This document shows, piece after piece, positions 12,393-32,647 of a stretch of 64,000 nucleotides of DNA (the stretch's first letter is position 1; the number at the start of each line of letters is the position of its first letter). Both the position numbers and the translations under genes were made by a program. The notes below the pieces were generated by a model. It was given only the letters and a program-made list of their open reading frames with translations, had not been told where the DNA came from and did no database searches. This DNA comes from Gemmatimonadota bacterium. Lineage in GTDB: Bacteria > Gemmatimonadota > Gemmatimonadetes > Gemmatimonadales > Gemmatimonadaceae. The DNA is taken from contig JAJTGR010000018.1 of NCBI GenBank assembly GCA_021299375.1, positions 1 through 64,000 of the forward strand, read 5' to 3'.

Positions 12393-12421
12393 ACGTTAGG
12401 AGCGGGAATCGGCTGTCGCAA
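12393..12421 (-). promoter_or_regulatory. candidate bchI promoter: TTGCGA-17-TAACGT (minus strand), -35 inside a PpsR-type box
   Basis: minus-strand TTGCGA (12416-12421) with 17-nt spacer to TAACGT (12393-12398). Confidence 0.4.
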
Positions 12422-12431
12422 TGTCCTGACA
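12414..12431. promoter_or_regulatory. PpsR/CrtJ-type operator TGT-N12-ACA (TGTCGCAATGTCCTGACA)
   Basis: exact TGT-N12-ACA between divergent bchI and crtF. Confidence 0.7.
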
Positions 12432-12448
12432 GTCACAACATCAACGGG

Positions 12449-12466
12449 TGTACACTTTTCTTGACA
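12449..12466. promoter_or_regulatory. PpsR/CrtJ-type operator TGT-N12-ACA (TGTACACTTTTCTTGACA)
   Basis: exact TGT-N12-ACA overlapping the crtF -35. Confidence 0.8.
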
Positions 12467-12489
12467 CCATTCCCGCCATTCGCTATCCT
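12461..12489 (+). promoter_or_regulatory. candidate crtF promoter TTGACA-17-TATCCT
   Basis: TTGACA 12461-12466, TATCCT 12484-12489; GTG start 7 nt after the -10. Confidence 0.6.
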
Positions 12490-12495
12490 CGGCCT

Positions 12496-13722
12496 GTGAA
12501 TCCCCCCGAACAGGCGCTCCCCGCGCCACCGGTTCCGGCGGCTGAACGCCTGCGTACGCCCGCCGCCATTGACGCTGTTCCCGCTGCCCCAGCGACCGTG
12601 ACGCCCGCGCCGACATGGCTCGAGCGGATGCGCGATCGTTGGAACGCCTTGGTCGCCACCGACGACTTCCAGCGGTGGAGCGCCCGCTTCCCGCTCACGC
12701 GGCCGATCACGATGTACCGGTCGCGCAAGCTGTTCGACATCGTCTCGGGATTCGTCTACACGCAGACCCTGCTGGCCTGCGTCGAGCTCGACCTCTTCGA
12801 GTTCCTTGCCGACGGGGCGAGAACCGCGGACGAAATCGCCACCCACACCGGGCTGTCGCGTGCCAGCACCGAGCGCCTCGTCAACGCCGCCGTGTCGCTG
12901 CGCTTGCTCGTGAGGCGCCGCCACGGCCGCTTTGCCGTAGGGCCGCTCGGTGCACCGCTGGTGCGCAACACGGGCGTGCTGGCCCTCATCCGGCACCACC
13001 GGATGGCCTATCACGATCTCTCCGATCCGGTGTCGCTGCTCCGCCAGGGCGCCGATTACCGCACCGAACTGTCCCGCTACTGGTCCTACGCCGATGCGCC
13101 ACGCCCGCAGGCCATCGACGACACCCGGGTCGCGGCCTATTCGGAGATCATGGCCGCCACACTCCCCCCGGTCGCGCACGATGTGCTCGATGCCTACGAC
13201 CTGTCGAAGCACGAAAGCCTGCTCGACGTGGGCGGCGGCGAGGGCGCGTTCCTGTCGCTCGTCGGCGCGCGGCACCCCCGGCTGCAGCTCCAGCTGTTCG
13301 ACCTGCCGGCCGTGGCCGCGCGGGCCCGGACCCGTCTGGAACAGGCAGGACTCGGCGACCGGGTGACGTGCCACGGCGGCAACTTCCACGCCGATTCACT
13401 GCCCGGCGGTGCCGACGTCTGCTCCCTCGTCCGTGTCCTCCTGGATCATGACGACGCGTCGGTGCTCCGTCTCCTGCAGCGGGTGCGCGCGGCGCTGCCG
13501 CGTGGCGGGGTGCTGCTGATCGCCGAAGCGCTTGCCGGCGCCAAAGGGGCCGAGACGGTGGGCGACGCCTACTTCTCGTTCTACCTCATGGCCATGGGCA
13601 AGGGACGAGCGCGCCGGGCGTCGGAGCTGCACCAGCTGCTGCAGTCGGCCGGGTTCCGCCGCAGCCGAGAACTGCCGACCCGCTTCCCTATCCAGACCGG
13701 GCTGATCGTCGCCGAGGTCTGA
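12496..13722 (+). CDS. crtF: hydroxyneurosporene/carotenoid O-methyltransferase CrtF
   Basis: SAM methyltransferase motif SLLDVGGGEGAFLSLV, N-terminal dimerisation/HTH region, immediately 5' of bchC as in classical PGCs; GTG start inferred. Confidence 0.85.
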   Translation: MNPPEQALPAPPVPAAERLRTPAAIDAVPAAPATVTPAPTWLERMRDRWNALVATDDFQRWSARFPLTRPITMYRSRKLFDIVSGFVYTQTLLACVELDLFEFLADGARTADEIATHTGLSRASTERLVNAAVSLRLLVRRRHGRFAVGPLGAPLVRNTGVLALIRHHRMAYHDLSDPVSLLRQGADYRTELSRYWSYADAPRPQAIDDTRVAAYSEIMAATLPPVAHDVLDAYDLSKHESLLDVGGGEGAFLSLVGARHPRLQLQLFDLPAVAARARTRLEQAGLGDRVTCHGGNFHADSLPGGADVCSLVRVLLDHDDASVLRLLQRVRAALPRGGVLLIAEALAGAKGAETVGDAYFSFYLMAMGKGRARRASELHQLLQSAGFRRSRELPTRFPIQTGLIVAEV

Positions 13723-20202: not shown

Positions 20203-20337
20203 ATGTCGGAAAAGGGCGGAATGACCGAGGAAGAGGCGCGCCGCTTCCACGGCTACATGGTGACCGGCACCATGGGCTACATCGTCGTCGCCGCGGTCGC
20301 GCATTTTCTTGCGTGGTCGTGGCGTCCGTGGTTCTAA
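20203..20337 (+). CDS. pufB: light-harvesting complex beta polypeptide
   Basis: MSEKGGMTEEEARRFHGYMVTGTMGYIVVAAVAHFLAWSWRPWF, canonical LH beta with conserved A..H. Confidence 0.95.
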   Translation: MSEKGGMTEEEARRFHGYMVTGTMGYIVVAAVAHFLAWSWRPWF

Positions 20338-20363: not shown

Positions 20364-20528
20364 ATGCATAGGATTTGGATGGGCACGGACCCCCACCTGA
20401 TCATGAGCGCGCTTGGCACGTTCCTGGTTGGGTGCGTTCTCGTGCTGCACATCTGGGCATTCGGTCAGTTCAACTGGCCGGGCACTCTCAAGGCCAAGTA
20501 CGCGACGCCTGCTGCCGCCACCCGCTGA
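20364..20528 (+). CDS. pufA: light-harvesting alpha-type polypeptide (first of two)
   Basis: MHRIWMGTDPHLIMSALGTFLVGCVLVLHIWAFGQFNWPGTLKAKYATPAAATR; conserved MHRIW start and TM His. Confidence 0.88.
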   Translation: MHRIWMGTDPHLIMSALGTFLVGCVLVLHIWAFGQFNWPGTLKAKYATPAAATR

Positions 20529-20537
20529 GGAGCACAT

Positions 20538-20753
20538 ATGCACCGCATTTGGCTGATGTTTGACCCGCGGCGCGTCATGGTGGCCCTGGTGGGCTTCCTC
20601 GCCGTGCTTGCGCTGGTCATTCACTTCATCCTGCTCAGTTCGCAGCGTTACTCGTGGATCGAGAACGGTACGCTCGGTGCTGATCAGGCCCCCGTCGGGG
20701 CGTCGGCTCCGGCGGCGGCGGCAGAAATGTCGCCGCTCCCGCCCGGCCGGTAA
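20538..20753 (+). CDS. pufA: light-harvesting 1 alpha-type polypeptide (second of two)
   Basis: [44 protein letters not shown], canonical LH1 alpha, with an A/P-rich C-terminal tail. Confidence 0.93.
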
Positions 20754-20772: not shown

Positions 20773-20810
20773 GGGCTGGCGTTTCGCACGTGTCGGTGCG
20801 ACGCCAGCCC
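20773..20810 (+). other. intercistronic pufA-pufL hairpin
   Basis: GGGCTGGCGT-TT-CGCAC/GTGCG-ACGCCAGCCC stem with GTGTCG loop. Confidence 0.65.
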
Positions 20811-20933
20811 CGGCCGACGCCAAACGTCCGGCTGGTTGGTGGTAGTGCGTTGGCAGTCGTTGGCCGTCTTCTGGTGAGTTGCAGCCGTTCCCCCCCCCGC
20901 TGCCTTTTCTCTGCGCGTCCGGAGATATCGCCC

Positions 20934-21758
20934 ATGGCGATGCTGAGCTTCGAAAAGAAGTACCGTGTCCGCGGTGGTACGCTGATCGGCGGAGATCTCT
21001 TCGATTTCTGGTTCGGTCCGTTCTACGTGGGCTTCTTTGGTGTCACGACGATTTTCTTCGTCACGCTCGGCACGCTGCTCTGCGTGTGGGGGGCGGCGAT
21101 GGGACCGACGTGGAACCTCTGGCAGATCAACATTGCGCCACCCGACCTCAAGTACGGTCTGGGCCTCGCGCCACTCCGCGAAGGCGGGCTGTGGCAGATC
21201 ATCACCTTGTGCGCCGTCGGAGCCTTCGGTTCGTGGGCGCTGCGCCAAGCCGAGATTGCGCGCAAACTCGGCATGGGGATGCACGTGCCCTGGGCGTATG
21301 GCGGCGCGATTCTCGCCTACGTCACACTGGTCGTCATCCGCCCGCTGCTGCTCGGCGCGTGGGGCCACGGCTTTCCGTACGGCATCTTCTCGCACCTGGA
21401 CTGGGTGTCGAACGTGGGGTACCAGTACCTCCACTTCCACTACAATCCGGCGCACATGATCGCCGTGACGTTCTTCTTCACGAACTGCCTCGCTCTGGCG
21501 ATGCACGGTTCGCTCATCCTCTCGGTGACCAACCCGCCGAAGGGGACGCCGACCGGGACGAGTGAGCAGGAGAACGTCTTCTTCCGCGACCTGCTTGGCT
21601 ACTCGATCGGCGCAATCGGCATTCACCGGCTCGGCCTGTTCCTCGCGGTCGGCGCGGCGGTGTGGAGTGCCATCTGCATCGTGATTTCCGGCCCCTTCTG
21701 GAGCAAGGGCTGGCCCGAGTGGTGGAGCTGGTGGCTCAACCTTCCGATCTGGCGCTGA
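20934..21758 (+). CDS. pufL: photosynthetic reaction center subunit L
   Basis: [50 protein letters not shown]. Confidence 0.98.
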
Positions 21759-21773
21759 GGTCACAGGGCTCAC

Positions 21774-22901
21774 ATGCTCGAATACCAGAACCTCTTCACG
21801 CGCGTACAGGTCCGCACCGTACCCGAACCGGGCCTGCCGATCGACGAGTCGACCGGCACCCGGTATGGCAAGGGCACCTTCTCGTACCTCGCCGGCAAGT
21901 TCGGCGACGCACAGATCGGACCGATCTACCTCGGCTGGGCCGGCGTCCTGTCGTTGATCTTCGGCTTCATGGCCTTCGAGATCATCGGGCTCAACATGTG
22001 GGCGTCGGTGGGATGGGATCCGGTGGAGTTCATCCGCCAGCTCCCGTGGCTTGCCCTCGAGCCACCGCCACCGCAGTACGGCCTGCGCATTCCGCCGCTC
22101 AACCAGGGCGGGTGGTACCTGATGGCCGGGTTCTTCCTCACCGTCAGCATCATCCTCTGGTGGATCCGCATCTACCGCCGGGCTCGCGCCCTGCAGATGG
22201 GGACGCACCTGCCCTGGGCCTTCGCCAGCGCGATCTTCCTGTACTCGACGTTCTTCTTCCAGCCGCTGCTCGTCGGCAGCTGGAGCGAGATGGTGCCGTT
22301 CGGCATCTTCCCGCACCTCGACTGGACGTCGGCGTTCTCGATCCGCTACGGCAATCTGTACTACAACCCGTTCCATGCCCTCTCGATCGCGTTCCTGTAC
22401 GGATCGGCCGTGCTCTTCGCGATGCACGGGGCCACCATCCTGGCCGTCGCCCGCATGGGAGGGCAGAACGAAATCGAGCAGATCACCGACCGCGGTACCG
22501 CGGCCGAACGCTCGATGCTCTTCTGGCGCTGGTGCATGGGGTTCAACGCCACGATGGAGTCCATCCATCGCTGGGCGTGGTGGTTCGCGGTGTTGACCAC
22601 CTTCACCGGGGGGATCGGCATCCTGCTGACGGGCACCGTGGTCGACAACTGGTACCTCTGGGGCGTGAAGCACGGCCTCGTGGCCCCGTACCCGGCCCAG
22701 AACGTGCTGACGCCGGAGCAGCAGGAACTGCTGCGCGGCCGCTACCAGGGCACGGCGCCGGACACGTTCCCGACTTTTGTGGTGCCGCAGTCGGCAACCA
22801 TCCCTGATACCGCGGCCATGCTGGTGCCTGCGGACTCGGTGAAGGCGGACTCCACCGCGGCCAAGGACTCGACCGTGGCCCCTGCGGGAGGCAAGCAATG
22901 A
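21774..22901 (+). CDS. pufM: photosynthetic reaction center subunit M with C-terminal extension
   Basis: [48 protein letters not shown]; about 65 residues beyond usual end. Confidence 0.98.
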
Positions 22902-24025
22902 GCAGCCGACGTCGTTTCCGTGCCCTGATCGGTGCCCCGATCGCCCTGCTGCTGCTGGGTGCCTGCGGCGATGCGGCGACCGACAGTGTGCAGGTGGGCT
23001 ATCGCGGTACCGCACTCGAGCAGAACTACGATCATGGCGACCTCAAGGCCAAGTTCGCCCAGGTCAAGATCCCGGCCCCGCCGCCGCCGGCGGGGGAGTC
23101 GCCCCCGGGACCGCTGCCGTGGCAGAACGTGCAGGTACTCAACGACATCAGCGTGGCGGAGTTCAACCGCACCATGATCGCCATGAGTACCTGGGTGGCG
23201 GGCACGGGCAACTGCGCCTACTGCCACAACATTGCGAATCTGGCCGCGGACACGCTTCCCAACGGCAAGCCGTTGTATGCGAAGATCGTCGCTCGACGCA
23301 TGCTGCAGATGACCCGCAACATCAACGGGAACTACGCGCAGCACGTGAAGAACACCGGCGTGACCTGCTACACGTGCCACATGGGCAAGCCGTTGCCGAA
23401 CGGGCTCTGGTTCTACTCGAGCCAGACCGACTACCTGCGGCACTACCTCGACCGTGACGGCGCCCGTGTCATCACTCAGGGCGTGACCCCGACGAACGAC
23501 AACCGCAGTTCGGTCAAGGCCGCGGAGTGGACCCACGCCCTCATGATCTCGCAGTCGCGGTCGCTGGGCGTGAACTGCACCTACTGCCACAACACGCGGC
23601 AGTTCGCCAGCTGGCAGGAAGCCCCGCCGGCCCGCGTCACGGCCTATCACGGCATCCTGATGCTGCGGGACGTCAACCGGAACTACCTCGCGCCGTTGCA
23701 GCCGGTGTATCCGGCGGTACGGCTCGGGGCGATGGGAGACGCGCCCAAGGCGCAGTGTGTGACCTGCCACAACGGTGCCTACAAGCCGCTGTATGGGGCC
23801 CAGATGGCCAAGGACTTCCCGGCCCTCTGGGGACGAGCCGACTGGAACGGTGTCCCGTTCCCGGGGCTGGGTGCGCCTCGGGGAGGGGCGGCGGATAGTG
23901 CGGCTGCCATGCCGGCTCCGGCCACTCCGGCCACTCCGGCCCCTGCACCAGTGGCACCGAAGCGCAGTAGTGCCCGCCCGGTGCCCCCCAACAGTGCGGT
24001 TGGGGCCGCGGGCGGCACGAACTAG
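22898..24025 (+). CDS. pufC: tetraheme reaction center cytochrome c subunit (lipoprotein)
   Basis: four CXXCH motifs (CAYCH, CYTCH, CTYCH, CVTCH), lipobox LLGAC. Confidence 0.97.
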
Positions 24026-24044: not shown

Positions 24045-24079
24045 GCCCCGCGGCGCCCCGGCGTCGCGGGGCTTTTCGC
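24045..24079 (+). terminator. Rho-independent terminator after pufC
   Basis: GCCCCGCG-GCGCCCCGGCGT-CGCGGGGC stem followed by TTTTCGCTTTT. Confidence 0.75.
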
Positions 24080-24135: not shown

Positions 24136-24819
24136 ATGACGGCGCCCGTTCCGTCTTCCCCTCCACCGAGTCCTCTTGTGTCTACCCGACGCCTTCCCGT
24201 CTACATCCTTGCCGACGTGTCCGGTTCGATGCAGGGCACTCCCATCGAATCGGTGAAGTCGGGCATCCGCCAGCTGCACCGCGACCTGCTGGGCGATCCG
24301 CAGGCCATCGAGAGCGCCTACCTCTCGGTCCTCACCTTCTCGAACAGCGCGCAGCAGCTTGTGCCGCTTACCGAGGTGGCGATGTTCAACCCGCCCGAGC
24401 TCGTCGCCAGCGGCTCGACCAACTTCGGCGACGGCCTGCGCCTGCTGCTGGAATCGTTCGATCGCGAGATCGTGCGCACCACGGCCGAGCAGAAAGGCGA
24501 CTGGCGCCCCCTGGTGTTCATTCTCTCCGATGGCGCGCCGACGGATGTCGAGTGGCCGGTGTACGCGCAGCAGCTGCGCGAGCGGCGCCCGGCCAACATC
24601 ATCGCCGTGGCCTGCGGTGACCAGGCGGATGTCGAGGTGCTCAAGCAGGTCACGGAAATCGTGATCCAGATGCAGGACATGTCGCCGGACGCCTTCAAGG
24701 CGTTCTTCCGCTTCGTCTCGGCCTCGGTCAAGCAGACAAGTGCCAAGGTCGGCGCCCTCGCTGACGGTCAGGGGATCACGCTTCCCCCGCCGCCGCCGGG
24801 CATCACGATCGTTCCGTAA
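24136..24819 (+). CDS. TerY-like von Willebrand factor A domain protein
   Basis: RRLPVYILADVSGSMQGTPIESVKSGIRQLHRDLLGDPQAIESAYLSVLTFSNSAQQLVPLTE; MIDAS DVSGS; EQKGDWRPLVFILSDGAPTD. Confidence 0.88.
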   Translation: MTAPVPSSPPPSPLVSTRRLPVYILADVSGSMQGTPIESVKSGIRQLHRDLLGDPQAIESAYLSVLTFSNSAQQLVPLTEVAMFNPPELVASGSTNFGDGLRLLLESFDREIVRTTAEQKGDWRPLVFILSDGAPTDVEWPVYAQQLRERRPANIIAVACGDQADVEVLKQVTEIVIQMQDMSPDAFKAFFRFVSASVKQTSAKVGALADGQGITLPPPPPGITIVP

Positions 24820-24827
24820 CGCCTCGC

Positions 24828-25913
24828 GTGCACTCCGAACTCCCCACCGCCCCCGGCGCCGCGGACGCGCCAACGGGGGACGCGGGGCGCCCGGCCACCG
24901 AGGCGGTGTCGGCGTCCACCACCCCGGAGGCCGTGGCCCCGCTGGCGCCGTTGGAAGCCCCACCGCGCGCCGTCTGGACGTCTCTCGCCCCCGCCGTGCC
25001 GTGGTGTCCTGCCGAGTGGATCGGTCACCTCGAGGCCGTCGCCCCCGGACTGGCCACGGCGGTCGCCACCACCGAGGCGGGTGAGGCCGTCGGCGATCGC
25101 CTCGCCGCGCACGGCTGGACGCTCGTGATGGCGTCGCGCCGTGGACGCCTGCACGCGCATCGTGGTGATCACCGGGAGGACGCCGGCGCCATTTCGGGCA
25201 TGCCGAGCGGATGGTGCGCCGCCGTTGCCGACGGCGCCGGGTCCGCCGCGTGGAGCCGCCTCGGCGCGGCGATGGCCACCCACGTGTTCACCCACGCCGT
25301 GCGTGCAGAGCTGGCGACGGGTGGCCGCGCCGGCGACACGCTGGCCACGGCCATGCAGCGCGCCGCAGACGCCACCAACCGGGCCCTGCGCGACTTTGCC
25401 TCCCGCTCCGGGCTGGCCCTGCGCGACTTGCGCACGACGTTGCTGTCCGTGGCGCTGCACCAGGGCTCGCTGGCCGTCATGCAGGTGGGCGATGGGGCCA
25501 TGGCGCTCCTGCACACCGGGCGCGTCGTCATTCATCCGCACGCCGCGGCCACCGGCGACTACTCCGGCGAGGTTACGCACTTTCTCCCCGATGACGGCGC
25601 CGTGGAGCACTTGCGGCAATCGCTGGCCGTACGCGACGCCGACGACTGCGTGGGGGTCGTGCTCGCCACCGACGGTGTGGACGATCCGTACTATCCGTTC
25701 ACGCGACACGTGGGCTCGCTGTACGCGCAGCTCCTGCATGGCACCACCGCCGAGACGCCGTTGCCAGCGGGCCTTGTGCCGGTGCGGCAGGCGCCGGTGT
25801 TCGATGCGCCGGATCCCGTGCGCGCGCTCAGTGAATGGCTGGCGTTCGAGAAGCGCGGGGAGAACGACGACCGGACGCTGTGCGTCATCCGGCGGGACGG
25901 CACGTCATGGTGA
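24828..25913 (+). CDS. PP2C-family Ser/Thr protein phosphatase
   Basis: GWCAAVADGAGSAAWSRLGA, MQVGDGAMALL, VVLATDGVDDPYYPF; GTG start inferred. Confidence 0.8.
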   Translation: MHSELPTAPGAADAPTGDAGRPATEAVSASTTPEAVAPLAPLEAPPRAVWTSLAPAVPWCPAEWIGHLEAVAPGLATAVATTEAGEAVGDRLAAHGWTLVMASRRGRLHAHRGDHREDAGAISGMPSGWCAAVADGAGSAAWSRLGAAMATHVFTHAVRAELATGGRAGDTLATAMQRAADATNRALRDFASRSGLALRDLRTTLLSVALHQGSLAVMQVGDGAMALLHTGRVVIHPHAAATGDYSGEVTHFLPDDGAVEHLRQSLAVRDADDCVGVVLATDGVDDPYYPFTRHVGSLYAQLLHGTTAETPLPAGLVPVRQAPVFDAPDPVRALSEWLAFEKRGENDDRTLCVIRRDGTSW

Positions 25914-25944
25914 CCGGCCTCGCCACCACGATCGGTCGCTGACC

Positions 25945-27366
25945 ATGGGTGTGGTGCATGTCCGCCTCACCGACGGGCGCGTCCTGCAGATCGACGACGA
26001 GCCGGTGGGCACTGGTGCCGAGAAGCGGGTGTTCCTCACCCGAGATCGGCAGTACGCCGTCGGGTTCTATTACGGCGCGCTGAGTGATCGGCGGGAACGC
26101 GTGGACCGACTCACCCGCATCCTCACCAACTACAACCCCACGCTCGCCGCCAACGGCACCTACTGGTCGCCGTATTTCTGCTGGCCGGTGGGCGTCGTCG
26201 ATGGGGTGAACGCCATCCCGCTGGCGTTTGCGCAGCGGCAGCAGCTGGTGTGGCCCCCCCTCGCCGTGGTCACGCCAACCTACCGCGGCAACTTCTACTT
26301 CAGCGACCGGTTCGGCTCGAAGCAGGAGAAGGAGGTGCGGTGGTTCACCGGTGGCAAGGCGTCCAGGTTCGTGCCTCAGGCCGAGACTGGGTCGCTGCTC
26401 ACGCGCCTTCAGGTGGCCGTGCGCCTCGCGCGGGCAGTGCGCCGGCTGCACATGGCGGGACTCGCGCATGCCGACCTGTCCAACAAGAACGTACTCGTCG
26501 ATCCCAAGGGCGGGGATGCCTGCATCATCGACATCGACTCGCTCGTCGTGCCAGGCGTGGCGCCGCCGTCTGTGCTGGGTACGCCGGGGTACATCGCGCC
26601 GGAGGTGCTCGCCAACAAGGCCCAGCCCAGCATCGCCACCGACAAGCATGCGTTGGCCGTGCTGCTCTACGAGCTGCTGCTCCAGCGGCACCCGCTGCAG
26701 GGCAAGCGCGTGAACAGTACGCGCTCCGCCGAGGAAGACGAACAACTGTCGATGGGGGCGCGCGCCCTGTTCATCGAGCATCCCACCGACCAACGCAATC
26801 CGCCGCACACGCCGATCAGCGTGCCCTTCACGCGGCTCGGGCCGGCGCTGGCCCAGTGTTTCACCCGCACGTTCGTGGACGGATTGCACACGCCAAACCG
26901 GCGCGCGGACGCCGCTGAATGGGAGGTGGCCCTCTACCGAACGATGCAGCGCGTCCATCCCCTCCCTTCGGGCAAGTGGACCGTGGTGGGCCCTGGCCTC
27001 CCCCTGGCGTCGCTGGCGGGCGATGAGCGCCTCTCCGGGCCGGTGCTGGTGGCCCATGTGCTCCGCGAGACGCCGGAGGGCGTGGTCGACGAGCAGGATC
27101 TGTTGGTCCTGTTCCATCACCTCGCCCTGCACGACTGGCACCTGCGCATCGGCTCGCTGCCGAACGAGAAGGCCGATCGGACTCCGCGTGGCTATGTGGC
27201 GCAGCACGGCGGCAAGTGGTGGCTCGTGAACACCAGCGACACCCCCTGGGACGTGATCGACGGCCCGCGCATCGGACGCAACGCCTCGGTGGAGTGCGTG
27301 AGCGGCCTCACGCTGCGGATCGGCGAAGCGTTGCCGGCCCGTGTGCTGCGGATCGGAACCCTGTAG
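25945..27366 (+). CDS. Ser/Thr protein kinase of a TerY-P-type triad
   Basis: LHMAGLAHADLSNKNVLVDPKGGDACIIDIDSLVVPGVAPPSVLGTPGYIAPEV catalytic core; ATG at 25945. Confidence 0.82.
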   Translation: MGVVHVRLTDGRVLQIDDEPVGTGAEKRVFLTRDRQYAVGFYYGALSDRRERVDRLTRILTNYNPTLAANGTYWSPYFCWPVGVVDGVNAIPLAFAQRQQLVWPPLAVVTPTYRGNFYFSDRFGSKQEKEVRWFTGGKASRFVPQAETGSLLTRLQVAVRLARAVRRLHMAGLAHADLSNKNVLVDPKGGDACIIDIDSLVVPGVAPPSVLGTPGYIAPEVLANKAQPSIATDKHALAVLLYELLLQRHPLQGKRVNSTRSAEEDEQLSMGARALFIEHPTDQRNPPHTPISVPFTRLGPALAQCFTRTFVDGLHTPNRRADAAEWEVALYRTMQRVHPLPSGKWTVVGPGLPLASLAGDERLSGPVLVAHVLRETPEGVVDEQDLLVLFHHLALHDWHLRIGSLPNEKADRTPRGYVAQHGGKWWLVNTSDTPWDVIDGPRIGRNASVECVSGLTLRIGEALPARVLRIGTL

Positions 27367-27397
27367 CCGCCACCCATCAGCGCGGTATCGTTCGGCC

Positions 27398-28657
27398 ATG
27401 GCTTCCGTTCCTCGGCACGACCCTCCGAACGACGCGTTCGCGCGTGTGAGCGCGGCGCTGCTGGCCGTGTGGCCAACAGTGCAGGATCAGGCGGCGGGGC
27501 TCTCGGCGGCAGAACGGAGTCTCGTACTGGACGAGTGCGGTAGCGACTACCGCCCCCTCGTGGAGCTGCTGCTCGACATCGGGCGGCAGCTTCGCCCGAC
27601 ACTCCTGGCGTTTGGCACCGCGCCGCAGTCCATTGCCGTCTGGGCGACCATGCGGGCCCCGCTGGTGCATCGCCTCGTGGCCACGCGCTACCTGCAACCG
27701 GATGTGGCGCGCTGGGCCGTGGATGTCTGGGGGCGCGTCCACGGCGTGGCGCCACCGCCGGAATCACCAGTCGCGGTGCCGCCCGGCAGGGTACCGGCAC
27801 CGGGTGGCCTGTCGACGCCGGCTGTCACTGTCTCCGGCGGTGCCGCGCGGCGCCCACCGACGCGGCCGGTCGTGGTCAGCCCGGCGAGTATCGCGCCGGC
27901 CGCCCTCGGCAACGTCCCGTCCTGGGCGGGGGGCCCGGTGTCGCCCCGCGTTGGCGTCAGGGCGACAGCGCTGGCGGCGAGCGGCCGGCTGGTGGTGAGT
28001 GGCACGACATCGACCGGCCCGCGGTACCAGCCGGCCGAGCGTCGCGCCGCAGTCGTCTTGGCCATACTGTTGGGGGCGATCGCGACCGGCCTGTTCCACA
28101 CGTTTCGCGAACGCGCCGGGGAGTCGGCACGACCTGCCGAGCGTGAGGATCGGACGCGCCGGGGCGATTCCCTGGTGGCGGGGGTCAGCGACAGCGTGGC
28201 ACCCGTGATGTCGGTACGCGACGATTCAACGCCAGCCCCGACGCGAGTGGCCGGGGCAATCACGGGCTCCTTCGTCGACACCGGCGTCGGGGGGCGCTAC
28301 GTCGTCACGCCACACGTGCGGGACGTCAGCGGAACCGAGACCTGCGCGGCCGTGGCGCGCGCGTTGGGCGCCGGCCGGGAGACGCTGGAACTCGTGAAGC
28401 ATCAGCCAGGCGTCCGCACCTTCGAGCTGACGACCCGTGCGGTGACGGGAACGCTGGATCCCGACGGCTGGTTTACCGCACATCCGCGATCCGGGACCAC
28501 CAACAACGTCAACTGGCAGTTCCGCATGCGTGGCCGATTCGGTCCCAATGGATTCAGCGCCGTGAGCGAGACGTACACCGAGGCCATCCTTCGCTGGGGG
28601 CGCACCCAGCAGTGCGTGGTGACTGCCGAGCTCACGGGCCGTCGCCTTCCCGGCTGA
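27398..28657 (+). CDS. uncharacterized single-pass membrane-anchored protein; paralog of the next CDS
   Basis: N-terminal helical domain DYRPLVELLLDIGRQL...LQPDVARWAVDVWG, P/A-rich linker, TM AAVVLAILLGAIATGLF, C-terminal domain with DPDGWF. Confidence 0.65.
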   Translation: MASVPRHDPPNDAFARVSAALLAVWPTVQDQAAGLSAAERSLVLDECGSDYRPLVELLLDIGRQLRPTLLAFGTAPQSIAVWATMRAPLVHRLVATRYLQPDVARWAVDVWGRVHGVAPPPESPVAVPPGRVPAPGGLSTPAVTVSGGAARRPPTRPVVVSPASIAPAALGNVPSWAGGPVSPRVGVRATALAASGRLVVSGTTSTGPRYQPAERRAAVVLAILLGAIATGLFHTFRERAGESARPAEREDRTRRGDSLVAGVSDSVAPVMSVRDDSTPAPTRVAGAITGSFVDTGVGGRYVVTPHVRDVSGTETCAAVARALGAGRETLELVKHQPGVRTFELTTRAVTGTLDPDGWFTAHPRSGTTNNVNWQFRMRGRFGPNGFSAVSETYTEAILRWGRTQQCVVTAELTGRRLPG

Positions 28658-28667
28658 GACGTCGCCC

Positions 28668-30515
28668 GTGACGTCCTTTCTCGACCCGCGCATCCGCATG
28701 CGCGACGCCTTGCGCGAGCTGATCGACGAGACCCCGGTCGGCTGGGAGCGCCCGTCATTGTTCGTACTCCGCAACCGGCTGCTCGACCGGACGGGCAGCG
28801 ATGCCCGTCCCCTCGCCGAGTTGCTGCTCGAGGCGTTGCGTCGCGGTTGGGGTGATCGATTGCCGTCCGGGCGGCTCGACACGCCGCGCTTCGATGGCCT
28901 GGTGTCCCCGTTCGTCATGCAATGGTCGGCGGAGCGGTTCGTGCAGCCGGAGATGGCGCGATGGGCGGTGGAGTCGTGGGCCTACGCGCTGCGGCGCATT
29001 GACGAACAGCAGCTCCGGATTGCGCCGCCCCCCAAGCGGGAATCGATGGCGGCCATGGCGGCCCGCCTCAACGCTCAGGCCGCGGCATCAGGTGTGCAGG
29101 CGGCCCGGGCGGCGCGGGCGCTGGCGGCAACAGCGGCACCGGCGGCCGGAGCCGCTCGCGTAGCCGGCACCGCCACGTCACCCGCGGCGAGCCCTGGCCG
29201 GCCCCTCCTGCCCCGCAACACCGCGCGGTCGACCACGGCGGCCCCGTCGCGTTACCCGCCGGCCTATTCCCCGCGCAGCCGGGTGGCGGGCCCATCGGTC
29301 GCACCATGGATCCCGCGCGCCATGTTCGGCACGTTGGTGGCCATGGGGCTGGCCGTCGTCGTTCGGGTCGTGGTCGCCAACGGGCAAGGGCCATCGGCGA
29401 CGGAGGTGCGCGCGGCCACCACGGCGGTGACGCCATCAGCGCCGGCTGACCGCGCGCGGCCGGACGGTTCGTCCACTCCGTCCGGCACCGTTTCACCTCT
29501 GGTCTCCGCGGCAAACGTACCGGGCGAGGCCGTCACGGCGGCCGCGGCCGAGCGGCCGAACGGCAACACACCGAACGGCAACACGCCGAACGGCAACACA
29601 CCGAACGGCAGCACACCGAACGGCAGTACGCCGAGCGGCCGCGTGACGGTTGCCGAGCCGCCGGGAGGGGTTGGCACCGACGGGTCCCGCGGGTTGGTGT
29701 CGCCAGCGCTCACCGGCGGTATCGCGATTGTCGCCCCGGAGCGCCCCGGCGTACCCTCGATCACGCGAGGCCTGCTCTCCGCCGGTGCCGACTCCGCGCG
29801 CATGTTGTTTGTGCAGCCAGCGCGCCGAGCAGCCGGTGAGTCGCGCCGCATCGCGACGACCACCTCAGCCACCCCGATCACCTTTGATGAACTCCATCTC
29901 GCCGACGGCACCATCCTCCGTGGGCGGGTAGAAGTCGTGCGCGCCGGCACGGTGATCTTCCGCGACATGAAGTCGGGGCTCCGTGTGGAATACCGAAAGG
30001 ACGACATCGACGAAGTCATCACCGAGTTCGGCACTATCGTGCGCTTCCGTGCCGAGCCAGCCGTCCGGAATGCGTCTGGGGGGGCGGGCGGGCGGCCAGG
30101 CACGGCCGAGCGCGGCGTCCGTGCCAAGGGGGTGAACGGCAGCTATCGCATCCGTTACGCGGCGGCGACGGCGGTTGGCTCACCGGAATGCACCCAGGTG
30201 TGGACCCGGGCGCCGAATGCAGAGGACATCGCCGACGTGCGCCACCGTGCTGGCGACGACACCCTGAGCGTGGCGTTCCGTGGCGGCGATGTCTTTCCCA
30301 GCAACGTCGATCCCGATGGCTATTTCGCCAGCACGTTTCGCATCGTGCCGGACCAGGCCCGAACCATGACGGCGCTCACGACACGTCTGAATGGCCGCTT
30401 CACCGCCGATGGTGGCCTTGCCCTGACCGTGAACATCGTGTTCTACCGCCGACTGCGGAGCGGTGAGGTCACATGCAATGTGACCGTCAAGGCGAACGGC
30501 ACGCGGGACCGGTAA
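28668..30515 (+). CDS. uncharacterized membrane-anchored protein with low-complexity linker; paralog of the previous CDS
   Basis: N-terminal DARPLAELLLEALRRG...VQPEMARWAVESWA, TM MFGTLVAMGLAVVVRVVVA, NGNTP repeats, C-terminal domain with DPDGYF; GTG start inferred. Confidence 0.65.
   Translation: MTSFLDPRIRMRDALRELIDETPVGWERPSLFVLRNRLLDRTGSDARPLAELLLEALRRGWGDRLPSGRLDTPRFDGLVSPFVMQWSAERFVQPEMARWAVESWAYALRRIDEQQLRIAPPPKRESMAAMAARLNAQAAASGVQAARAARALAATAAPAAGAARVAGTATSPAASPGRPLLPRNTARSTTAAPSRYPPAYSPRSRVAGPSVAPWIPRAMFGTLVAMGLAVVVRVVVANGQGPSATEVRAATTAVTPSAPADRARPDGSSTPSGTVSPLVSAANVPGEAVTAAAAERPNGNTPNGNTPNGNTPNGSTPNGSTPSGRVTVAEPPGGVGTDGSRGLVSPALTGGIAIVAPERPGVPSITRGLLSAGADSARMLFVQPARRAAGESRRIATTTSATPITFDELHLADGTILRGRVEVVRAGTVIFRDMKSGLRVEYRKDDIDEVITEFGTIVRFRAEPAVRNASGGAGGRPGTAERGVRAKGVNGSYRIRYAAATAVGSPECTQVWTRAPNAEDIADVRHRAGDDTLSVAFRGGDVFPSNVDPDGYFASTFRIVPDQARTMTALTTRLNGRFTADGGLALTVNIVFYRRLRSGEVTCNVTVKANGTRDR
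29556..29645 (+). repeat. 15-bp coding tandem repeat (PNGNT/PNGST), five units plus one degenerate unit
   Basis: ccgaacggcaacaca repeated in frame at 15-nt spacing. Confidence 0.85.
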
Positions 30516-30700: not shown

Positions 30701-31240
30701 CTACTGAATTGGCACGAACGGTGGCGCCACCGTGGGCCCGGGGCCAGGTTTGGTCTTCAGCAGGTTGTCGAAACTCTCGATCTGCGTCGGCCCGAAGCTG
30801 GTGATGGTCACCTGTTGCCTGGTCGCATCGTCGTGCAGCACGAGCCGGCCATCCGTGTAGCGAACGAGCCGGAAGGGCTCGGCATGACCGATACCGGCGG
30901 CCATGCGACTGCGGGTGAGCGCGCGCAAGGCGCCGCGCAGAAAGCCATTGCTGCCGGGAGCCAGCACGACCGCCACCGTGTTCGTGGTGGCATCGATGAC
31001 GGTGATCCCCTGATTGGGCGCATCCTCGAAGCGCAGGGCGCGCTCGACGAGAATGGTGGTGGGGACCTCACGGAACGCACCAAAACCGAGGAAGCGCGCT
31101 GATGCGGCGAGGATGAACACCGTCAGCACGAGCAAGCCGGCCATGATGAGCGCCGGCTTGGGGACCGTGAGCGGCGGGGCGCCAGGCCGTTCGCCCGGTT
31201 CCGGCTCGAAGATGATGCCGGGTTGTGGGGGCTGCGTCAT
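30701..31240 (-). CDS. puhC: photosynthetic complex assembly protein PuhC
   Basis: single N-terminal TM, RFEDAPNQGITVIDATTNTVAVVLAPGSNGFLRGALRALTRSR; position after puhB. Confidence 0.87.
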   Translation of the reverse strand: MTQPPQPGIIFEPEPGERPGAPPLTVPKPALIMAGLLVLTVFILAASARFLGFGAFREVPTTILVERALRFEDAPNQGITVIDATTNTVAVVLAPGSNGFLRGALRALTRSRMAAGIGHAEPFRLVRYTDGRLVLHDDATRQQVTITSFGPTQIESFDNLLKTKPGPGPTVAPPFVPIQ

Positions 31241-31242
31241 GG

Positions 31243-31902
31243 TCAGGCTCCGGCGTGCGCGGGCATGGCCATGGCCCCGCCACGCGCGCCGCTCAGCCGC
31301 TCGATGCGCGTGTCAGCGTCCGCGGCGTCGGCCACGGCCTTGGAGAGGATCTCCGCCACCCGGCGCGGCTCGTCGAGCCCGCGAAGCACCGGCTCCGGCT
31401 GGGTGAACCGGAAGACACGGCAGTGCGGCCAGAGCGCGATGTACGCGATGCGGTTGCCCTTGCTGAGGGAGAGCAGCACCTGCCCCGAACCGTCCCGGAA
31501 CGTCCGGAGGCCCGCCGACTCGATGAGCCGGAACGGAATGTTGATCGACATGGGGAACACCATGCCGATGCGCAGCACCACCCGCTGCGTCGTGATGGCG
31601 TACCAGGTCGTGACCGATACGACCCGCGAGAGGCCCAGCACGATGAGCATCGTGAAGACGGCGAGCGACACACGCACGACCGCGCTTGCCACGTAGGTCT
31701 CGCTTCCGGGCGCGTGCTCGGTCGACACGGCCCAGATCGCGAGCATGGCTGCGAAGTAGGCCACGAAGAGTCGCCAGTGAAACACGTGGGTCGCCACGGC
31801 CCGCATGGACGGAGCCCCCTCCCACAGCAACCGCTCACCAGCCGGCAGCGGGTGCGGTACGCCGCGAATGAACTGCGGCGTACCGTCGACCACGTCACTC
31901 AT
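31243..31902 (-). CDS. puhB: photosynthetic complex assembly protein PuhB (PH-domain membrane protein)
   Basis: GVPHPLPAGERLLWEGAPSMRAVATHVFHWRLFVAYF; YAITTQRVVLRIGMVFPMSINIPFRLI. Confidence 0.9.
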   Translation of the reverse strand: MSDVVDGTPQFIRGVPHPLPAGERLLWEGAPSMRAVATHVFHWRLFVAYFAAMLAIWAVSTEHAPGSETYVASAVVRVSLAVFTMLIVLGLSRVVSVTTWYAITTQRVVLRIGMVFPMSINIPFRLIESAGLRTFRDGSGQVLLSLSKGNRIAYIALWPHCRVFRFTQPEPVLRGLDEPRRVAEILSKAVADAADADTRIERLSGARGGAMAMPAHAGA

Positions 31903-32444
31903 ATGATCGGCTCGCCCCGACCCGGCATGGCGTACAGGTGACCACCCGCGTAGTAGGCGCAGATCCGATCCTCCTCGAGGAGCGTGATCTGGTCGTCGCG
32001 CCTGGTCACCGGCACGTTCGCGAACTGCGCCGCCGTGATGGACTTCACCAGGAGCTTGTCATTGCCCCAGAGTCCGAAGTTCGGCCACTGCACATACCCG
32101 GCGGGCAGCAGGACGCGGCGTTCGCTGCCCACCAACTGCACTTCGTAGTAGCTCACCTGCGGCTCCGAGCGATTCACCCACAGGTCGACGACGATGCCCG
32201 CCGTTTCCTTGTCGGCGGCCACCACCGGCAGGCCCCGCGGATCGGGGTCGCCCTTGGCGATCGAGAACGCCGGATCGAGCCGCATGGGGACGATCTTGTT
32301 CGCACCGTGGTAGGTGAGATCGGGCTCGTCGCGGCGATCGGTGGCCCACGCGGCGGGACCGACGCCGTCGATCATGGGGTCGCCGGTCGGGATGATCGGC
32401 GAGCCATTGTAGTTGTCAGCCGGGACGAACGTGACGTCGGACAT
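31899..32444 (-). CDS. puhA: reaction center subunit H, cytoplasmic domain (second part of split PuhA)
   Basis: PTGDPMIDGVGPAAWATDRRDEPDLTYHGANKIVPMR...GDPDPRGLPVVAADKETAGIVVDLWVNRSE. Confidence 0.9.
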   Translation of the reverse strand: MSDVTFVPADNYNGSPIIPTGDPMIDGVGPAAWATDRRDEPDLTYHGANKIVPMRLDPAFSIAKGDPDPRGLPVVAADKETAGIVVDLWVNRSEPQVSYYEVQLVGSERRVLLPAGYVQWPNFGLWGNDKLLVKSITAAQFANVPVTRRDDQITLLEEDRICAYYAGGHLYAMPGRGEPII

Positions 32445-32647
32445 CAGTGAGCCCCCTCGCCGCCGTGCGGCCGATGCAGATAGGTCTTCTTTTCCCCCGG
32501 CTTCGGCCAGCCTTCGCGCGGGCCCTGCGGGGATTCGAGCGGATACCCTTCACGCTTGTCTTCGCGGCGGAGATAGATGATCAGGCCGAAGAAGAACAGC
32601 CAGAATGCGTAGAGCGCGATCTGGGCACCATCGATGTACTCCATCAT
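32444..32647 (-). CDS. puhA: reaction center subunit H, transmembrane/linker part (first part of split PuhA)
   Basis: [37 protein letters not shown]...[21 protein letters not shown] overlap with the downstream ORF. Confidence 0.88.

Follow-up and report, generated by a model that had tools for sequence, protein, structure and literature searches.

The 64,000-nucleotide stretch of Gemmatimonadaceae DNA analysed here (positions 1-64,000 of contig JAJTGR010000018.1, called here the window) carries within its photosynthesis gene cluster a cassette of five genes encoding a vWA protein, a PP2C-type phosphatase, a Ser/Thr kinase and two membrane proteins, called here mem1 and mem2. We propose that these genes work together as a single module, a membrane-coupled Ser/Thr phospho-switch derived from the TerY-P system of metal-stress signalling and recruited by phototrophic Gemmatimonadaceae, a reading to which we give even chances. 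More tentatively, the module could be a dedicated post-translational regulator of anoxygenic photosynthesis, namely a gene-split receptor kinase in which a vWA scaffold and a ribbon-less kinase/phosphatase pair of TerY-P descent would be combined with two periplasmic sensors resembling PknI, and which would act on the photosynthetic membrane of organisms whose photosynthesis cluster is under hardly any transcriptional control. The cassette is put forward as a candidate regulator of photosynthesis that can be tested. It comprises the following open reading frames (ORFs).

24136-24819, + strand: vWA, TerY-like stand-alone vWA protein of 227 amino acids (ORF, PF00092)
24828-25913, + strand: PP2C, PP2C-type protein phosphatase of 361 amino acids, GTG start (ORF, PF13672)
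25945-27366, + strand: kinase, TerY-P-derived Ser/Thr kinase of 473 amino acids (ORF, PF00069)
27398-28657, + strand: mem1 (ORF, paralogy, hydropathy)
28668-30515, + strand: mem2 (ORF, paralogy, hydropathy, model)

As the initial annotation had described, these co-directional genes lie closely spaced between pufC and the puh genes: all are on the + strand, upstream of puhC, with intergenic gaps of 8, 31, 31 and 10 bp. The same five-gene order is seen again in many other genomes, so that a chance arrangement is ruled out.

The vWA-PP2C-kinase triad

Comparison with Pfam confirmed the families attributed to the first three products. The vWA protein matches PF00092 (2.9e-9), possesses a complete metal ion-dependent adhesion site (MIDAS; in the window protein, DVSGS at residue 27, GST at 93 and SDG at 131) and shares up to some 50% identity with the vWA proteins encoded in TerY-P loci. 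The PP2C protein matches PP2C_2 (PF13672, 5.8e-33) and carries the metal-site motifs DGAG, TDGV and NDDRT. The kinase matches Pkinase (PF00069, 2.8e-15) and gave only one full-length match in its own genome, with no second complete copy found there. No Pfam family was found for mem1 or mem2 of the window, and none was consistent over 31 members. The vWA and kinase genes are under strong purifying selection, their omega values of 0.04-0.10 and 0.08-0.13, respectively (0.04-0.13 together), being comparable to those of pufM (0.05-0.12); the PP2C gene (0.29-0.41) and the mem genes (0.22-0.37) are held more loosely than these two.

The kinase residues were compared in an alignment of 45 kinases, made up of 28 from Gemmatimonadaceae and 17 Ter-type homologs. 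The HxD Asp, the Asn, the DFG Asp and the APE Glu are intact in every sequence, all 28 Gemmatimonadaceae kinases included, and since these catalytic residues are intact the latter look catalytically active. The Lys is arranged as in WNK kinases, within the Gly-rich loop (GxGxxK) and with none at beta3, in 44 of the 45, again including all 28. The lone reverse case is the Heliorestis kinase, which has the canonical Lys arrangement. The alignment covers the kinase of the window and that of L043 (9971-11389), among others. The two groups are separated by the zinc ribbon, whose four Cys are present as a full set in 17/17 Ter-type homologs vs 0/28 Gemmatimonadaceae kinases, and the 28 form a single clade in the kinase tree (support 100/100). 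The region concerned is the following.

26905-27363, + strand: C-terminal region of the kinase (residues 321-473), former zinc-ribbon segment and FHA-like beta domain

The AlphaFold2 model of these residues (pLDDT 94.5) has FHA domains on top of its PDB fold matches (best E 1.6e-3, prob 1.00), a statement about fold and not function; as modelled, the C-terminal domain is FHA-like and not OB.

In the TerY-P setting, vWA and PP2C proteins accompany a kinase with a C-terminal zinc ribbon (Anantharaman et al. 2012, as summarised in PMC11090510), and an actinobacterial form associated with GAP1-N2 combines kinase, zinc ribbon and beta-rich domain (PMC7159879). Full-length relatives of the cassette kinase, 33-43% identical to it, were found in Thiotrichales, Heliorestis, Planctomycetes, Deltaproteobacteria, Succinivibrionaceae and Rhodobacteraceae; they align over most of the query, the majority have a PP2C gene and one or two vWA genes as neighbours, and four of the loci checked proved to have TerD (PF02342) nearby (L043, L050, L055 and L060). 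The first three genes of the cassette had been assigned to a TerY-P triad. Their homology to the vWA, PP2C and kinase components of that system holds, but the zinc ribbon is missing, the kinase ends in an FHA-like domain, and TerD was found in 0/7 genomes searched, a search in which positive controls were detected and which did not extend to TerC. Because the zinc ribbon is a defining TerY-P feature, we file the cassette as a derived variant and not as a canonical member; by analogy, it would be expected to work like the TerY-P kinase/phosphatase switch.

Membrane proteins and a proposed mechanism

The last two genes had been read as encoding paralogous membrane proteins, and this reading was upheld. 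mem1 and mem2 match each other in pairwise BLASTP (5e-6), each has one strongly hydrophobic segment by hydropathy, and residues G491, Y493, C508, H526, F553, G576 and C603 are invariant across 31 mem homologs. Like these homologs, the two proteins have a helical domain at the N-terminus, a single transmembrane segment and, at the C-terminus, a domain that contains two Cys. In mem1, the N-terminal domain is followed by a P/A-rich linker, the transmembrane segment and a C-terminal beta domain with the conserved Cys pair; its paralog mem2 has in addition an Sm/Hfq-like domain preceding the C-terminal domain. The parts of mem2 are predicted as follows.

28668-28997, + strand: N-terminal helical domain (residues 1-110), predicted cytoplasmic; pLDDT mostly about 93-96
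29307-29381, + strand: transmembrane helix (residues 214-238), helical in the model; hydropathy peak at 218
30129-30506, + strand: C-terminal beta-sheet domain (residues 488-613), predicted periplasmic; conserved Cys508/Cys603

Within the N-terminal domain, A97, W99 and W104 are nearly invariant. The model places the small Sm/Hfq-like domain at about 405-460, with disordered linkers, and Hfq is among its PDB fold matches. As a fold, the whole mem2 model is best matched in the PDB by the sensor domain of Mycobacterium tuberculosis PknI (5xlm; E 6.7e-4, prob 1.00, 141 columns, target TM 0.52), and, judged by length and fold class, the matching part should be the C-terminal domain. A role of mem1 and mem2 as the supernumerary reaction-centre subunits RC-S or RC-U was considered and rejected, no PDB sequence match at E<=1 having been obtained for mem1, mem2 or puhC.

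The two membrane proteins travel with the kinase. Among 249 Gemmatimonadota genomes sampled, the mem1/mem2 profile was found in 10 of the 12 that carry the kinase, the contigs of the other two ending within the cassette, and outside these 12 just one weak partial match was seen (G121). In G203 (L195 12987-15947, L107 8183-10244), mem1 and mem2 are retained about 16 kb from the kinase and on the opposite strand. The neighbourhood survey suggested with the initial annotation found the mem homologs beside the triad elsewhere, including outside the photosynthesis cluster (G181 and genus g18), and only inside this clade; the annotation's own refuting condition, that the two never occur together elsewhere, was therefore not borne out.

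In the mechanism that we propose, mem1 and mem2 would sit in the inner membrane as bitopic sensor or anchor proteins, whose PknI-sensor-like periplasmic beta-domain would read a condition at the photosynthetic membrane and whose cytoplasmic helical domain would recruit the vWA protein as a scaffold. This scaffold would bring the soluble kinase and the antagonistic PP2C to the membrane, the whole amounting to a receptor kinase whose parts are encoded by several genes. The balance of kinase and PP2C would then decide how far proteins of the photosynthetic membrane are phosphorylated, or those of pigment synthesis or assembly, or mem1 and mem2 themselves, which could dock on the FHA-like domain of the kinase. 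Its location in the cluster and its restriction to phototrophs make it likely that the module acts on the photosynthetic membrane or the pigment machinery. Loss of the zinc ribbon, together with the absence of TerD from the genomes searched, suggests that the membrane proteins have taken the place of an ancestral metal-sensing input; the cassette would then show how a stress-signalling module can be rewired, its metal-sensing part being swapped for membrane partners.

The photosynthesis genes of phototrophic Gemmatimonadota were acquired from a purple bacterium. According to published work, the genetic control of the donor did not come with them, and no regulation dedicated to the photosynthetic apparatus has evolved in G. 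phototrophica (PMC11406998). If our proposal is true, a conserved Ser/Thr phospho-module would put control of photosynthesis at the protein level in organisms thought to be nearly without regulation. The idea is directly testable, as two cultured species are reported to have hypothetical genes at this site (PMC7844134) and natural phototrophs lacking the module are available for comparison.

Occurrence, relocation and boundaries of the cassette

Most phototrophic Gemmatimonas carry the cassette, usually within the photosynthesis gene cluster, and their non-phototrophic relatives almost never do. At a threshold of E<=1e-20, the kinase was found in 12 of the 249 Gemmatimonadota genomes, every one of them among the 25 that contain pufM, taken here as the marker of phototrophy. 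Of 179 Gemmatimonadaceae genomes searched, 28 had the kinase and 44 had pufM, the kinase being present in 27/44 pufM-positive vs 1/135 pufM-negative genomes (Fisher 2e-19, a value inflated by shared ancestry). Within the genus, the corresponding figures are 17/23 vs 0/7 (p=8e-4). By co-occurrence, the cassette is linked to phototrophy, and it is of long standing. The five genes had been called unrelated to photosynthesis, which is correct for their domains and not for their distribution.

Regarding its position, the cassette adjoins pufC in 22 genomes, some of which reach a contig end. In some cassette-less phototrophs, among them G172, G219, G274, G275, G286, G287, G087 and G183, pufC is followed directly by puhC. 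The pufC-puhC junction is likewise empty in G181, where a complete cassette lies on another contig; in G277 the cassette could not be placed, the contig ending in pufC. Because both the PufLM and the kinase trees place G181/G277 next to the window genome, the cassette left the cluster within that lineage. In genus g18 (G135 and G299, and probably G298), it is likewise found outside the cluster, and one membrane protein can be seen there. All of these genomes (G135, G298, G299 and G181/G277) are phototrophs, and that the module was kept in G181 and g18 after its departure from the cluster speaks for our proposal. Cassette-less Gemmatimonas are mostly nested within cassette-bearing groups of the PufLM tree, which points to independent losses. 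The insertion into an acquired cluster that the initial annotation had envisaged is ruled out as a recent event by the two trees: they are largely congruent, the cassette following PufLM closely with several clean losses and at least one relocation.

Several observations weigh against our proposal. Phototrophs without the module are found in G172, G219, G274, G275, G286 and G287, in all sampled members of genus g2, in g22 and g28 and in family f5; since there are several of them, the module is dispensable, that is accessory, for phototrophy. G301, a kinase-bearing metagenome-assembled genome that is 85% complete, has its cassette on a 4-kb contig and yielded neither pufM nor acsF, although its photosynthesis cluster may be absent merely through incomplete assembly. 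In G203 the vWA and kinase genes are adjacent after pufC, with no PP2C gene detected between them or in their vicinity, and in G074 mem1 is frameshifted in the linker, through a real mutation, a sequencing error or frameshifting, so that the cassette does not always need all of its parts. The co-occurrence of kinase and phototrophy partly reflects the shared ancestry of cluster and cassette. Finally, the matches to PknI (E 6.7e-4, target TM 0.52) and to FHA domains (E 1.6e-3) speak for folds, not functions.

The main rival explanation is general stress protection, followed by hitchhiking. The cassette could be a phospho-module for general envelope or oxidative stress that is not directly linked to the photosynthetic apparatus. 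Its benefit would go mainly to cells that synthesise bacteriochlorophyll aerobically and so face singlet oxygen and membrane load, which would account for its presence in phototrophs, and its site in the cluster would be a tolerant or co-acquired one. The stress-related ancestry of TerY-P (PMC11090510), the sensor-like periplasmic domain, the retention of the cassette at other chromosomal sites and its dispensability in several phototrophs all fit this explanation, but the kinase is almost wholly restricted to pufM-positive genomes and the cassette lies directly 3' of pufC in 22 genomes; we hold it to be a serious if rather improbable account. The congruent trees and the repeated clean losses would also be expected had the cassette entered the ancestral cluster once and been co-inherited without functional linkage. 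Such pure hitchhiking is disfavoured by the distribution and by retention after relocation in the phototrophs G181 and g18, as well as by the purifying selection on vWA and kinase, and we consider it unlikely. A control of Mg-chelatase and bacteriochlorophyll synthesis, in which the vWA protein would compete with or modulate the vWA domain of BchD and the kinase and PP2C would set its state, is suggested by a stand-alone MIDAS protein in a bch-rich cluster and by a very weak match to the chelatase family TIGR02442 (E 0.029); it is very improbable, as the vWA protein is closely related to those of TerY-P loci and the membrane proteins would be left unexplained.

Turning back to the proposed module, its boundaries in the window are as follows.

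20790-24025, + strand: upstream boundary, pufL, pufM and pufC (ORFs; pufM matches from the genome surveys)
24045-24072, + strand: terminator-like hairpin after pufC, 12-pair stem with T-rich tail, separating the puf operon from the cassette
30701-32647, - strand: downstream boundary, puhC, puhB, puhA1 and puhA2 (puhB by PF03703; order conserved in relatives)

The strong terminator reported at 24045, after the end of pufC at 24025, was recovered. In its stem, 11 of the 12 pairs are G-C, a pair count that, taken alone, is no higher than chance. A strong hairpin with a T-rich tail is present 3' of pufC in 18/22 relatives, with stems that differ and still pair (for example CCCCGCGGCGCC/GGCGTCGCGGGG and CCCCGTAATGCC/GGCATTGCGGGG). 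Because of this conservation, the cassette is probably a transcription unit of its own, separate from puf. No sigma-70 promoter was found by consensus 5' of the cassette, the consensus not being decisive for this phylum, and no PpsR-type TGT-N12-ACA site was found near it, the window total being at chance level. The only cluster of such sites in the window is three within 100 bp (12414-12512), between bchI and a divergent gene. Downstream, a puh-bch operon had been named as the neighbour; puh genes do lie there, but they start with puhC (30701-31240) on the - strand and are therefore convergent with the cassette. puhB was identified by its bPH_2 match (PF03703) in 31243-31902, and puhA is split into puhA1 (31899-32444) and puhA2 (32444-32647), as reported for Gemmatimonadota (PMC12817894).

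Upstream of pufL, pufB (20203-20337) is followed by two different pufA genes (20364-20528 and 20538-20753), the double-ring antenna genotype; a single pufA was found in the loci of family f5 and in g22/g28. A tie of the cassette to the double-ring antenna was rejected, the second pufA being also present in the cassette-less G172, G219, G275, G286 and G287. In family f5 (L115 6686-8612, L114 9039-11001), acsF lies between puf and puh, and not beyond lhaA as in Gemmatimonadaceae. In G129 (L100 6767-7093), an unrelated kinase-like fragment (29%) lies 3' of pufC and the puh genes do not follow.

Comparison with known systems

Hypothetical genes between puh and puf, reported as conserved between G. 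phototrophica and G. groenlandica (PMC7844134), are very probably the same locus as the cassette; the passage of that paper describing them gives no domain content, family, distribution or function. Such genes are drawn as grey hypotheticals in the transcriptome paper PMC11406998, and within the literature searched we found no publication linking Gemmatimonas photosynthesis to a vWA/kinase cassette or identifying its genes.

Compared with the TerY-P triad, the cassette has the same adjacent and co-directional vWA, PP2C and Ser/Thr kinase genes, a vWA protein with the MIDAS pattern DxSxS..T..D, and a kinase alignable over its full length whose C-terminal layout is that of a ribbon segment followed by a beta-rich domain. 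It differs in that its kinase lacks the zinc-ribbon Cys set, in that a search of seven genomes yielded no TerD, and in having two dedicated membrane partners and a place in the photosynthesis gene cluster.

The kinase/PP2C/vWA logic is also that of the TerY-P-like antiphage module (PADLOC STK_OB), in which the kinase is fused to an OB domain (Gao et al. 2020, as cited in PMC11090510). OB-fold modules of this kind are reported to be stand-alone defence systems (PMC11090510), but an antiphage role is the least probable of the explanations and the suggested part in defence found no support, the C-terminus of the cassette kinase being FHA-like and not OB, its surroundings offering no defence context and its distribution being phototroph-restricted and largely vertical. 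PADLOC gave no match for vWA or PP2C and an STK_OB match at E 0.02, and is uninformative as a test of TerY-P membership, Ter-type control triads missing its models as well.

With PknI, a receptor Ser/Thr kinase of M. tuberculosis, the cassette would share the extracytoplasmic sensor fold matched by the mem2 model. Unlike PknI, which is one polypeptide, the cassette has its kinase and putative sensor in separate genes, with two sensor paralogs.

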